Of a stretch of 64,000 bases of DNA, positions 13,585-31,325 are shown in pieces. The notes below the pieces were generated by a model. It was not told where the DNA came from. It searched no databases and was given only the letters and a program-made list of their open reading frames with translations. This stretch comes from Cytobacillus gottheilii (lineage in GTDB: Bacteria; Bacillota; Bacilli; Bacillales; Cytobacillaceae). The stretch lies in the NCBI RefSeq assembly GCF_900166665.1, contig NZ_LT800494.1:834673-898672 (forward strand), given 5' to 3'. Made by a program: the position numbers and the translations under genes. The stretch's first letter is position 1, and each line of letters opens with the position of its first letter.

Positions 13585-13610
13585 TTCAAACAAATATGAA
13601 AATTGAATAT

Positions 13611-13710
13611 TCTTATCAAGAGAGGTGGAGGGACTGGCCCTGCGAAACCCGGCAACCGGTTAATTACACGGTGCTAATTCCAGCAGAGCAAATGCTCTGA
13701 AAGATAAGAA
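13611..13710 (+). ncRNA. SAM-I (S-box) riboswitch upstream of metY
   Basis: All conserved blocks of the S-box are present in order: TCTTATCAAGAGAGGTGGAG, GAAACCCGGCAACC, GGTGCTAATTCC, and the closing GATAAGA that pairs with TCTTATC to form P1. When S-adenosylmethionine is bound, the downstream terminator forms and metY is switched off. Confidence 0.97.
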
Positions 13711-15281: not shown

Positions 15282-15389
15282 CTCTTATCAAGAGAGGTGG
15301 AGGGAAGTGCCCTATGAAGCCCGGCAACCGTCATGAAAATGAAATGGTGCCAATTCACTCAAAGCTTATGGCTTTGATAGATGAGAGAA
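15282..15389 (+). ncRNA. SAM-I (S-box) riboswitch upstream of metN
   Basis: CTCTTATCAAGAGAGGTGGA, GAAGCCCGGCAACC, GGTGCCAATTC and the P1-closing ATGAGAG are all present. It is a second independent aptamer 1.6 kb from the first, controlling the methionine ABC importer. Confidence 0.97.
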
Positions 15390-19281: not shown

Positions 19282-20067
19282 ATGGCAGCATCAACTTTAA
19301 CAATTAAAGACCTTCATGTTGAAATTGAAGGCAAAGAGATATTAAAAGGTGTTAATCTTGAAGTCAAAGGCGGAGAGATTCACGCAATCATGGGACCAAA
19401 CGGAACAGGGAAATCTACATTATCTTCTGCGATTATGGGTCACCCGAAATATGAAGTTACATCTGGCAGCATCGTAATGGATGGTGAAGATGTGTTAGAA
19501 ATGGAAGTAGATGAGCGTGCTCAAGCAGGTCTATTTCTTGCTATGCAATATCCAAGCGAGATTAGCGGTGTAACAAATGCTGACTTCTTGCGTTCTGCAA
19601 TGAACAGCCGCCGTGAGGAAGGAAACGAAATTTCATTAATGAAGTTTATCCGTCAAATGGATAGCAAAATGGAATTCCTTGAAATGGACGTAGATATGGC
19701 TCAGCGTTACCTAAACGAAGGATTCTCTGGCGGAGAGAAAAAACGTAATGAAATCCTTCAATTAATGATGCTTGAACCCAAAATTGCTATCCTGGATGAA
19801 ATTGACTCAGGATTAGATATCGATGCATTAAAAGTGGTTTCTAAAGGAATCAATGAAATGCGCGGCGAAGATTTCGGCTGCTTAATTATTACTCACTATC
19901 AGCGTCTTCTTAACTATATTACGCCTGATCATGTACACGTAATGATGCAAGGCCGCATTGTAAAATCCGGTGGCCCTGAGCTGGCACAGCGTTTAGAGGC
20001 AGAAGGATATGACTGGATTAAAAAGGAACTTGGCATCGAAGACGAAACAGTTGGGCAAGAAGCGTAA
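19282..20067 (+). CDS. sufC: Fe-S cluster assembly ATPase SufC
   Basis: 261 residues. ABC-type ATPase that is cytoplasmic, not a transporter, and partners SufB and SufD. Walker A is GPNGTGKST, the signature is FSGGEKKRNEI, and Walker B is IAILDEIDSGLDID, with the LDEIDSGLD form typical of SufC. ATG follows GGAGG. First gene of sufCDSUB. Confidence 0.97.
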   Translation: MAASTLTIKDLHVEIEGKEILKGVNLEVKGGEIHAIMGPNGTGKSTLSSAIMGHPKYEVTSGSIVMDGEDVLEMEVDERAQAGLFLAMQYPSEISGVTNADFLRSAMNSRREEGNEISLMKFIRQMDSKMEFLEMDVDMAQRYLNEGFSGGEKKRNEILQLMMLEPKIAILDEIDSGLDIDALKVVSKGINEMRGEDFGCLIITHYQRLLNYITPDHVHVMMQGRIVKSGGPELAQRLEAEGYDWIKKELGIEDETVGQEA

Positions 20068-20084
20068 CAGTTAGGAGGATCACT

Positions 20085-23051
<2,967 letters not shown>

Positions 23052-23116
23052 AACAAGTTTGGGATAAAATATAGCTAAAGGATGATTCCTGAGGCAAAGA
23101 ATGGAGGAATACGACG

Positions 23117-24514
23117 ATGGCAAAAAAGATGCCTGACATTGGCGATTACAAGTACGGATTTGCCGATAAAGACGTTTCCATTTTCCGATCAAAACGCGGG
23201 TTAACAAAAGAGATTGTTGAAGAAATTTCAAAAATGAAGGAAGAGCCTCAATGGATGCTGGACTTCCGCTTAAAATCATTAGAGCACTTCTACAACATGC
23301 CGATGCCGCAATGGGGCGGAGATTTAGCGTCATTAAACTTTGATGAAATCACTTATTATGTAAAGCCTTCTGAAAAGACTGAGCGTTCTTGGGATGAAGT
23401 TCCAGATGAAATCAAGCAAACGTTTGATAAGCTTGGAATTCCTGAAGCAGAGCAAAAGTATTTAGCAGGTGTATCTGCACAATACGAATCAGAGGTTGTT
23501 TACCATAACATGCAGGAAGATCTTGAAGCGATGGGAATTGTATTTAAGGATACTGACTCTGCACTTCGCGAAAACGAAGAGATTTTCAAAGAGCACTGGG
23601 CAAAGGTTATTCCGCCAACAGACAATAAGTTTGCGGCTTTAAACTCTGCTGTGTGGTCAGGTGGATCTTTCATCTATGTTCCAAAAGGGATCAAAGTTGA
23701 AACACCACTGCAAGCATACTTCCGCATTAACTCTGAGAACATGGGGCAATTCGAACGTACGCTGATCATCGTTGATGAAGGCGCACATGTGCACTATGTA
23801 GAAGGCTGTACAGCTCCTGTGTATACAACAAACTCACTTCATAGTGCGGTTGTTGAAATCATCATTAAAAAGGATGCATACTGCCGTTATACAACAATCC
23901 AAAACTGGGCAAACAATGTTTATAACCTTGTTACAAAGCGTGCAGTTTGTGACGCAAATGCAACAATGGAATGGATCGATGGAAATATCGGTTCTAAATT
24001 AACAATGAAATACCCAGCTGTTATTTTAAAAGGAGAAGGCGCACGCGGAATGACTCTTTCCATCGCACTAGCAGGTAAAGGTCAGCATCAGGATGCAGGA
24101 GCAAAAATGATTCACCTTGCACCAAACACGTCTTCAACCATCGTTTCAAAATCCATCTCGAAACAAGGCGGAAAAGTAACATACCGCGGAATCGTTCAAT
24201 TTGGACGCAAAGCAGATGGAGCACGTGCAAACATTGAGTGTGATACGTTAATCATGGATAATCAATCAACATCTGATACCATTCCATATAACGAAATCTT
24301 AAACGACAATATTTCACTTGAGCATGAAGCGAAAGTTTCTAAAGTATCTGAAGAGCAGCTGTTCTACCTAATGAGCCGCGGAATCTCTGAAGAAGAAGCA
24401 ACAGAAATGATCGTAATGGGCTTCATCGAGCCATTTACAAAAGAACTTCCAATGGAATATGCAGTAGAAATGAACCGTCTTATCAAGTTCGAGATGGAAG
24501 GATCTATTGGATAA
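23117..24514 (+). CDS. sufB: Fe-S cluster assembly scaffold SufB
   Basis: 465 residues. SufBD-family scaffold on which clusters are built. Typical blocks are [40 protein letters not shown] and the C-terminal [22 protein letters not shown] lies 11 bp after GGAGG. It closes the suf operon and is followed by a strong terminator. Confidence 0.97.
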
Positions 24515-24903: not shown

Positions 24904-24965
24904 TCAAACAATCATTTGACCATTAGAATAATTTTGCATATACTAATATTCAAATGAATGTTTGA
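24904..24965. promoter_or_regulatory. cad promoter with two CadC-type operators
   Basis: Promoter TTGACC (24916-24921), 17 bp, TATACT (24939-24944). Two dyads of identical design, TCAAA-N6-TTTGA, lie at 24904-24919 and 24950-24965, one overlapping the -35 and the other just past the -10. The second extends to ATTCAAATGAATGTTTGAAT. This matches ArsR/SmtB operator style, where the apo-repressor blocks the promoter until metal binds. Confidence 0.75.
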
Positions 24966-24981
24966 ATGAGGAGGCTATATT

Positions 24982-25350
24982 TTGAAACACGATGATATTT
25001 GCGAAGTGACTTGTGTGGATGAGGTAAAAGTAAATCGAGTCAAAAATTCTATCCAGCAGAAGGATACGATGTCTGTTGCACAAATATTTAAAGCTCTTTC
25101 TGATGATACGAGGATTAGAATTGCTTTTGCTTTATGCGAAGAAGATGAACTTTGTGTATGCGATGTTGCTAATATTGTTGGCAGCACAATGGCTACTGCG
25201 TCTCACCATTTACGTCATCTTAAAAACCTTGGTCTGGCAAAGTATCAGAAACGAGGTAAACTCGTGTATTATTCCTTGGATGACGAGCATGTCAGACAAT
25301 TGATTCAAATAGCCTTTGCACATCAGCTGGAGGGAAAGCTTCATGAATAA
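24982..25350 (+). CDS. cadC: CadC, ArsR/SmtB-family metal-sensing repressor
   Basis: 122 residues from TTG 24982 after GGAGG. The winged-helix domain has the DNA-recognition helix STMATASHHLRHLKNLGL. Metal-site cysteines fall at Cys7, Cys11, Cys58 and Cys60 (EVTC and ELCVCD), the same numbering as the Cd/Pb/Zn sensor CadC of Staphylococcus. It should repress its own operon and release on Cd, Pb or Zn. The cadA start codon lies inside its last codons, so the two are co-translated. Confidence 0.94.
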   Translation: MKHDDICEVTCVDEVKVNRVKNSIQQKDTMSVAQIFKALSDDTRIRIAFALCEEDELCVCDVANIVGSTMATASHHLRHLKNLGLAKYQKRGKLVYYSLDDEHVRQLIQIAFAHQLEGKLHE

Positions 25351-27469
25351 CTCCGAATTACAGAAAAGTGTTTACCGCGTTCAAGGCTTCACCTGAGCAG
25401 GCTGCGCGACAAAGTTCGAAAAGAACGTCAAACACCTGGATGGTGTTTCTAATGCAAATGTTAATTTTGGTGCATCTAAGCTTACTGTTTATGGTGAGAC
25501 AACGATTGAAGTACTCGAAAAAGCAGGAGCTTTTGAAAACTTAAGACTGTATCCTGAAAAACAAAAAGTTGAAGAGAAAAAGATTCCATTTTTCCAAAAA
25601 CACGGGACAGTCATCGCATCGCTTATATTCCTGTTAATAGGCTGGATGGCTGCAGAAATATCAGGTGAAAATAGCATTGTTTCTATACTAGCATATGCCA
25701 GTTCTATTTTAGTGGGCGGTTATCGGCTCTTTAAAACAGGAGTTATGAATTTATTCCGTTTAGAGTTTGATATGAAAACTTTAATGACCATTGCAGTTAT
25801 TGGTGCTGCTGTTATTGGTGAATGGGGTGAAGGTGCAACAGTTGTTATCTTGTTTGCGATCAGTGAAGCCCTCGAAACATACTCCATGGATAAGGCACGC
25901 CAATCAATACGGTCATTAATGGACATTGCTCCTAAAGAAGCTTTAATCAGAAGAGGAAATGAAGAACGCTTTATTAATGTAGATGATATTCAAGTTGACG
26001 ATATTATGATCGTTAAACCTGGACAAAAAATAGCGATGGACGGAATCGTTTTAAAAGGAGTATCATCAGTCAATCAAGCAGCTATTACGGGTGAATCAGT
26101 ACCTGTGTCAAAAACAATTGAAAATGAAGTTTTCGCGGGTACATTAAATGAAGAGGGCCTCTTGGAGGTAAAAGTTACAAAACTTGTGGATGATACTACC
26201 ATTGCAAAGATCATACAATTAGTTGAAGAAGCTCAGGCAGAACGGGCACCATCACAGGCATTTGTAGATCGCTTTGCCAGGTACTATACTCCAATCATCA
26301 TGCTGGTTGCACTTGCCGCAGCTGTTGTACCTCCTTTATTCTTCAATGGAGATTGGGAGAAATGGATTTACCAGGGATTAGCTGTTTTAGTAGTCGGCTG
26401 TCCATGTGCCCTTGTTATTTCCACACCCGTATCTATTGTAACGGCAATCGGGAATGCAGCACGTAATGGTGTTCTGATCAAAGGCGGCATTCATCTTGAA
26501 GAATTGGGAGGAATTAAAGCAATTGCCTTCGATAAAACAGGAACCTTAACAAAAGGAGTTCCTGTGGTAACGGATTACCTTCCAAATACAGATATTGATC
26601 CTGATGAACTGCTGACTATTGTTGCAGCTTTGGAAAATGGTTCACAGCATCCACTGGCTTCTGCCATTATCAAAAAAGCTGAAGAAGAAGATTTAAAATA
26701 CAAAAGTATATCGATTGAAAAATTCTTATCAATAACAGGAAAAGGAGTTACAGGCTCAATACATGGCAAAACCTATTATGTCGGCAGTCCAAGTCTATTT
26801 GAAGAAATATTAGAAAATGGGTTATCAAATGAGCAGAAGGAAACGATCTCGCAGCTTCAAGAAAAGGGCAAAACGGTCATGGCTGCCGGAACATCTGCTA
26901 AAGTTTTAGGGCTGATTGCTGTTGCTGACGAGTTGAGGATAAATAGTATAGACGTTATTCAAAAACTTCATTCATTAGGAGTTCAAAAGACCATTATGCT
27001 GACAGGAGATAATGCTGGAACTGCAAATGCAATCGGAAAACAGGCAGGTGTTTCGGATCTGAAGGCAGACTTGCTGCCGCAGGATAAATTAGCTTTTATT
27101 AAAGGTCTGAAAAGCGAATATGGCCGGGTGGCTATGGTTGGGGATGGTGTCAATGATGCTCCCGCTTTAGCAGCCTCTACTGTTGGAATTGCAATGGGCG
27201 GTGCTGGGACAGATACGGCTTTAGAAACAGCTGACATTGCATTAATGGCAGATGATCTGGAAAAACTGCCTTTTGCCGTTAAGTTGAGCAGAAGAACATT
27301 ATTCATTATTAAACAGAATATTATATTCTCTTTAGGCATTAAACTACTGGCCTTACTCTTAGTTGTTCCAGGCTGGTTAACACTATGGATTGCTATTTTT
27401 GCAGATATGGGTGCAACGCTAATAGTCACATTAAATGGTTTAAGACTGCTGCGAGTGAAGGATAAATAA
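25343..27469 (+). CDS. cadA: CadA-type P1B metal ATPase with in-frame TGA (candidate selenoprotein)
   Basis: Cd/Zn/Pb export ATPase, 708 codons plus stop, a normal CadA length. ATG 25343 follows GGAGGG at good spacing and overlaps the cadC stop. Codon 18 is TGA, and translation continues in frame to the end. The N-terminal metal-binding domain reads [21 protein letters not shown], so TGA replaces the first Cys of the CxxC motif while Cys21 is kept. All catalytic motifs are intact: TGES near 249, CPC near 353, DKTGTLT at Asp397, GDGVNDAP near 600. Without decoding of TGA only a protein from an internal ATG (for example 25646, inside the first membrane helix) could be made. The choices are selenocysteine insertion, natural nonsense mutation or sequencing error. 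Confidence 0.85.
25394..25429 (+). other. TGA codon and downstream hairpin, candidate bSECIS
   Basis: TGA at 25394-25396. A stem GTTC/GAAC (25414-25417 with 25423-25426) carries the loop GAAAA, whose first base G is 22 nt after the TGA. A lower GAC/GTC pair (25408-25410 with 25427-25429) adds a 3-nt A bulge. Published bacterial SECIS models ask for a short stem with a G in the first two loop bases, 16-37 nt after the UGA, which this meets. The stem is short, and the same codons could occur by protein constraint alone (KFEKNV). Confidence 0.4.
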
Positions 27470-31027: not shown

Positions 31028-31190
31028 CCGATGGGGTAGAGGTGCATTATTTATTAGTAAGCTGCTTGAGGATGACAACAAGGAGAGCAGCTGAAAGGGA
31101 ATATTGCCGAAGCGGATAGCTGATGTCAGCAGCTATCTCGCTGGGGTTATCTTTAAGAGAGGTAACACTGTCATTGCAGGTAAGAAAAGT
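31028..31190 (+). ncRNA. Lysine riboswitch (L box)
   Basis: The conserved L-box blocks occur in order: GGGTAGAGGTGC near 31034, GCTGAAAGGGAATATTGCCG near 31092, the AAGC...GCTATCTCGCTGGGG arm, and ACACTGTCA near 31164. The end points are approximate, because P1 pairing (GATGG with TCATT) is weak. A terminator lies downstream, so lysine binding should reduce expression of the transporter that follows. Confidence 0.9.
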
Positions 31191-31237
31191 CTTTATACAA
31201 TATTATGAAGTCTTTTTATTTGTGTTGGGTGATTCTT

Positions 31238-31325
31238 GCAATGGAGAGCTACAGGTCGTAATGGAGAAGAATAGATTATCAAGAGTGATGATAGAGATTC
31301 TCTGCCATTGCTCTTTTTATTTTGT
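31238..31325 (+). terminator. Attenuation terminator of the lysine riboswitch
   Basis: GCAATGGAGAG pairs with CTCTGCCATTGC (one bulged G) around a long internal arm, followed by TCTTTTTATTTT. Confidence 0.75.

Follow-up and report, generated by a model that had tools for sequence, protein, structure and literature searches.

The cadA-type gene of Cytobacillus gottheilii described here has an in-frame UGA at codon 18 that is very probably read as selenocysteine (Sec), the first residue of a U-x-x-C site at which the metal exported by the encoded P-type ATPase is likely bound. The first-pass annotation had proposed this gene as a candidate selenoprotein, and the proposal is supported by the conservation of the TGA, the presence of the Sec machinery in the genome and the covariation of hairpins located behind the codon. 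Sec-type CadA is a kind of protein already known as a prediction, and the present analysis extends it to many more relatives of Bacillus.

The cad operon and its predicted metal-binding site

The DNA analysed is a stretch of 64,000 nucleotides (the window) whose coordinates are used below; the cad genes, motifs and hairpins positioned in it lie on the + strand. The gene for the cadA-type heavy-metal P-type ATPase, a predicted selenoprotein, spans 25343..27469 (708 codons). Its ATG (25343) overlaps the stop codon of cadC (25348-25350) and is preceded by a likely ribosome-binding site, GGAGGG (25329..25334), as stated in the first-pass annotation. Apart from a single in-frame TGA at codon 18 (25394..25396), the predicted Sec codon, the frame is open up to the TAA at 27467-27469. 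The full-length frame with its catalytic motifs claimed initially was thus recovered, TGES, CPC (26399..26407), DKTGT (26531..26545) and GDGVNDAP being all present in the product. We take CPC to be the transmembrane metal site and DKTGT to be the phosphorylation motif. Profile searches gave 611 bits for TIGR01525 (cut-off 346.25) and 531 bits for the cadmium-family model TIGR01512 (cut-off 313.5), and the top full-length solved relatives are 4umv (zinc-transporting ATPase) and 7qbz (cadmium P-type ATPase). Family membership suggests that the product exports Cd, Zn or Pb.

The N-terminal heavy-metal-associated (HMA) domain (residues 7-74; 25361..25564) was delimited by its match to the solved domain 2aj0/2aj1, a “Probable cadmium-transporting ATPase” (E 3.2e-24). 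The TGA is aligned with the first Cys of the CxxC motif of that structure, which reads GLSCTNC. The Cys-type paralogue of the same genome (L018) reads GFTCANC and has TGT at the matching codon. Because both have Cys there, Cys is the residue expected at codon 18, in agreement with the earlier reading of this position.

The cadC-like gene (24982..25350), which overlaps cadA, codes for an ArsR/SmtB metalloregulator (NF033788, 93.8 bits; cut-off 55). The inverted repeat TTCAAATGAATGTTTGAA found upstream from it (24949..24966, no strand assigned) is a likely operator that we take to resemble known cad operators, and a similar repeat is found in front of the operon of the same-genome Cys paralogue. 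The neighbourhood of Sec-type cadA genes was searched for a conserved partner pointing to the substrate, and cadC alone was general, adjoining cadA at 52 of 55 loci. The methyltransferase gene downstream of the window's cadA is not diagnostic because its relatives were found at 11 Sec-type and two Cys-type loci. An insertion in cadA suspected from a long match span at three loci (L096, L101, L118) was rejected, the span being accounted for by a CopA-like ATPase gene downstream of cadA. The region directly upstream of the cad operon (19282-24514) is presumably a suf operon for iron-sulfur cluster assembly. The window also carries two SAM riboswitches and one lysine riboswitch above the Rfam cut-offs (13610-13710, 15282-15387, 31029-31259).

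In the mechanism that we propose, transcription of the cadC-cadA operon would begin when metal releases the CadC-like repressor. The hairpins right after the UGA would recruit SelB with Sec-tRNA-Sec, the codon being decoded as Sec and not as a stop, and the ion of a soft metal, namely Cd, Zn, Pb or Hg, would be captured by the selenolate/thiolate pair for the CPC site in the membrane. If selenium or SelB were lacking, translation would end after a peptide of 17 residues, and the Sec-type pump should therefore depend on selenium. The Cys-type CadA encoded by the same genome (C4:4530583) would be selenium-independent, possibly providing a second pump.

Sec could also be inserted and act as a redox or oxidative-stress switch, in which a reversible Se-S bond with Cys21 gates the pump, rather than as a metal ligand. 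U-x-x-C is a redox-like motif, and most known Sec residues are redox-active catalysts. The motif is found, however, in an HMA domain, a metal-binding type of domain, and the Cys relative of known structure comes from a cadmium ATPase; the regulator of the operon is a metalloregulator. The passages of PMC13188914 that were covered leave these roles open too, while suggesting that Sec may bind metal as a ligand in other selenoproteins linked to transport. We regard a redox switch as rather unlikely and keep metal binding as the probable role of the U-x-x-C site.

Selenocysteine machinery and its co-occurrence with the UGA

The source genome (G000) is 4.78 Mb long, with completeness rated at 100% and contamination at 5.36%, and codes for a tRNA-Sec with anticodon UCA, above the Rfam cut-off, and for selA, selB and selD, each above the curated cut-off. 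The search for selA, selB, selC and selD, set beforehand as a check of the Sec assignment, found all of them. The tRNA-Sec gene (L017:7859-7955) is not clustered with selA, selB or selD; it precedes a gene (L017:6578-7663) that looks to us like a nitric-oxide-synthase oxygenase, an assignment which we assume. The selD gene has one in-frame TGA of its own (A-G-TGA-G-C; L028:1531-1533). Another is found in an FdhA-like gene (EHQARI-TGA-HS; L177:1924-1926) whose match of 210 bits is under the cut-off of that model. These are probably two further selenoprotein genes, so that the genome has, counting the cadA-type gene, at least three probable ones. A six-frame scan of the window inspected by eye, covering TGAs near Cys or Gly in long read-through frames, yielded no other plausible candidate.

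Among the 36 genomes of the genus, a TGA copy of cadA is found in 25 of the 33 that have selB versus none of the three that lack it (Fisher p 0.023, kinship ignored). In the sample of the family (151 genomes), the matches listed include a TGA copy in at least 96 of 129 selB-positive versus 4 of 22 selB-negative genomes (p 8e-7, kinship ignored); the TGA was located within the gene only in fetched copies, and all 23 new family loci (23/23) have it at the same codon. A search for tRNA-Sec in 14 picked genomes was positive in four (G010, G019, G045, G101) and negative in ten, which include the three selB-negative genomes of the genus.

The four selB-negative genomes with a TGA copy count against the rule of co-occurrence. 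Completeness is 66% in two of them (G101 and G151), and a tRNA-Sec gene is found in G101. In the two others (G106 and G134, 99-100% complete) neither selB nor tRNA-Sec was found above the thresholds used; their copies (L169 and L170) have the TGA at the same codon as the window's cadA. The selB-negative status of G134 and G151 was derived by subtraction and not from a named listing. The G106 and G134 copies look like recent transfers. That of G106 equals the copies of G019, G137, G064 and G143 in score, identity and coverage, and its printed stretch is identical to the one of G019 (L171). It was probably transferred recently into a lineage unable to read UGA as Sec, and its match to four other genomes suggests spread by a mobile element.

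Ordinary readthrough of the UGA, or its decoding as an amino acid other than Sec, would likewise yield the full-length protein. Such decoding is very improbable: Cys, the usual partner of Sec, is found at this position in homologues, the UCA tRNA-Sec and selABD are present, and the TGA copies co-occur with selB. Insertion of Sec is the reading followed below.

Conservation of the UGA and the hairpins behind it

In the same-genus genomes, 52 CadA matches were identified at E <= 1e-240, with one TGA in 30 and no stop in 22; the position was read in 30 fetched loci only, of which 23 have the TGA at the codon and seven have Cys. Among the best 80 of 569 confirmed loci, which are those named, 52 have TGA at the position of codon 18 and 28 have Cys only. 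Titles of TGA-bearing records include Neobacillus, Cytobacillus, Mesobacillus, Robertmurraya, Rossellomorea, Peribacillus, Fictibacillus and Litchfieldia. The nearest relative, C. gottheilii FJAT-2394 (L033/L064), codes for a 97% identical protein with the same TGA; because it is a separate assembly, a base-call error is effectively excluded.

The class-wide sample of 299 genomes has a CadA match at E <= 1e-230 in 110. The TGA is present in 23 rows from 23 genomes (one row also has a TAG), two rows have only other stops and the rest are stop-free. All 23 TGAs (23/23) are at the same codon as that of the window, while the three stop-free rows fetched as controls all have Cys there. Four TGA rows belong to the window's family and 19 to 15 other family-level groups. 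The comparison with relatives called for initially therefore found the TGA to be kept at each of these scales.

Two tandem hairpins follow the UGA and are predicted, from the fold and from pair counts in alignments, to be parts of its SECIS element. Hairpin 1 (GTTC-GAAAA-GAAC, 25414..25426) is the short hairpin that the first-pass annotation had spotted, with a G-first loop that starts 22 nt after the TGA. Hairpin 2 (AAACACC-TGGAT-GGTGTTT, 25430..25448) is longer and located just behind it. Their conservation was assessed on 57-base segments, 55 distinct ones of Sec type (A1) and 33 of Cys type (A2). The helices of 4 bp and 7 bp are paired in 98.0% of the cells of the Sec-type alignment, with four pairs changed on both sides, compared to 37-54% when partners are slid by 1-3 columns as a control and 60.6% in the Cys-type alignment. 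In hairpin 1 GTTC/GAAC is replaced by GTTT/AAAC in two Robertmurraya and by ATTC/GAAT in Bacillus sp. cl95, all at synonymous sites; in hairpin 2 CACC/GGTG is replaced by CGCC/GGCG in one clade. Both hairpins are recovered by RNAalifold unaided.

In the larger set the element was scored as intact when all four pairs of helix 1 and the inner five pairs of helix 2 were formed. All 74 distinct Sec-type segments have both helices intact, compared to none of the 37 Cys-type ones; these counts are not probabilities as the rows are related and not independent. Random synonymous recoding of the Sec-type segments forms both helices in a mean of 14.6% (maximum 20.4%). Helix 1 alone forms in 17 of the 37 Cys-type segments, which indicates that it is in part a by-product of the encoded protein sequence. 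Sec-type genes vary least at synonymous sites in codons +6 to +10 and +13 to +15 counted from the TGA, as well as at +2, and mostly to an ordinary degree further away. The folding energy of the region after the TGA is ordinary (z -0.97; 33 of 200 shuffles fold as well), unlike codon conservation and hairpin covariation, which exceed chance.

The cautious option of the first-pass annotation, a single nonsense mutation or base-call error turning TGT or TGC, one base away from TGA, into a stop and leaving a pseudogene in one strain, has a negligible probability: the same TGA is found across many species and assemblies in which the rest of the 700-codon frames is open, and compensatory changes keep the hairpins.

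Lineage differences and relation to known selenoproteins

In the other family-level groups, the 19 TGA copies differ in the structure that follows the codon. Both hairpins are intact in three of them (L207, L208, L214) and helix 2 is not formed in 16 (L183, L194, L198-L206, L209-L213). These 16 copies have a stem in another register, columns 14-19 pairing with columns 25-30, with 90.6% of cells paired and three compensated pairs, a stem favoured over slid controls by having been picked on inspection of these same 16 sequences. It is complete in 11 copies, lacks the outer pair in one and the inner two pairs in four. Elsewhere at most three of its six pairs are found in the Sec type of the window's family and at most two in the Cys type. 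Comparison of the sequences indicates that the recoding signal at this one codon likely differs between lineages. Four of the copies (L198, L199, L203, L206) fold a further strong hairpin whose loop is GGT or GTT; the predicted fold of L206 differs.

The history of Sec/Cys exchange was followed in a CadA tree of 119 distinct proteins (88 Sec, 31 Cys) with the codon masked. Five changes are needed, all of them forced by starred branches, in a tree that was built by a quick method, is unrooted and has eight long-branch rows flagged. Cys copies are nested in Sec groups. L101 (record title Robertmurraya korlensis PF24B2) stands beside the Sec copy L118 (R. korlensis NBRC 107688); its codon is TGC, helix 1 is kept and four of the five inner pairs of helix 2 are formed. 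L090 and L091 stand beside the Sec copy L080. Helix 1 is kept in L091, with 3/5 inner pairs of helix 2, and L090 has 3/4 and 3/5 pairs in the two helices. The nested Cys copies look like Sec-to-Cys reversions with a decaying element, judging from these sequences, and a recent reversion is likely in the case of L101 versus L118. Sec-to-Cys reversion was already described for other families in the passages covered of PMC1794560. The Cys paralogue of the window's genome (L018) also sits among Sec copies. Three records in the tree are titled Chryseobacterium sp. ISL-80 (L138), Paenibacillus sp. BSR1-1 (L070) and Paenibacillus sp. FJAT-29882 (L091), and their cadA genes group with Mesobacillus, Neobacillus and Peribacillus copies; they may be mislabelled or mixed records, or transfers.

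We give about an even chance to a broader reading, in which Sec in the metal-capture domain of a cadmium pump would be a heavy-metal ligand and not a redox catalyst, and metal export would be selenium-dependent across much of the Bacilli. The signal would have been replaced at least once by an unrelated one, between the tandem two-hairpin SECIS of the window's family and its neighbours and a single 6-bp stem in another register elsewhere, and in other lineages the codon would have returned to Cys, with decay of the element.

A selenoprotein family COG2217/TIGR01525 (example ABB15669.1) is already predicted in the passages covered of PMC2398784, PMC5029168, PMC9312934 and PMC13188914. Likened through those listings, the window's gene is of the same kind, a TIGR01525-type ATPase with UGA first in CxxC and common Cys homologues; their main-text passages name no member from Bacillaceae. 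The “notable variation” announced in the first-pass annotation thus stands as far as the Sec reading is concerned, but its kind was in print beforehand. Searches of the open-licence literature (main texts, long lists being partly covered) recognised no paper on a Bacillaceae Sec-type CadA, nor did they meet its breadth in Bacilli, the covarying two-hairpin element, the different stem at the codon or the Cys reversions. Cys-type CadA Cd-Zn-Pb ATPases (TIGR01512; 2aj0/2aj1) share domain order, CPC, catalytic motifs and a cadC gene in front, but lack the TGA as first ligand codon and the conserved hairpins behind it. The window's element agrees with the bacterial SECIS as presented in the passages covered of PMC1088965, a stem-loop directly after the UGA with a G in a small loop, and differs from it by the two tandem conserved hairpins in the window's family and three other groups and by the other register in 16 copies from further groups. 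The UxxU metal-binding (seleno)protein NF041115 has a Sec-containing HMA-like metal-binding domain of the same superfamily. It is a free small protein (model length 74) while the window's domain is part of a pump, and the cadA-type product misses its cut-off (28.5 vs 95 bits).

A pump with conserved Sec where the metal is captured would allow the role of Sec as a ligand to be probed in living cells and would link heavy-metal resistance to selenium supply. Comparisons could draw on natural pairs, namely the Sec- and Cys-type CadA of one genome (L032, L018) and the close R. korlensis pair (L118, L101). One codon followed by different stems according to the lineage is also a natural experiment on SelB recognition in Gram-positive bacteria. 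Sec-type cadA genes would be cut short by gene callers that treat UGA as a stop. Two RefSeq CDSs from two Cytobacillus plasmids (WP_082919471.1 and WP_252222689.1), listed in the gene table without a Sec note, already span the TGA, which was confirmed in both.
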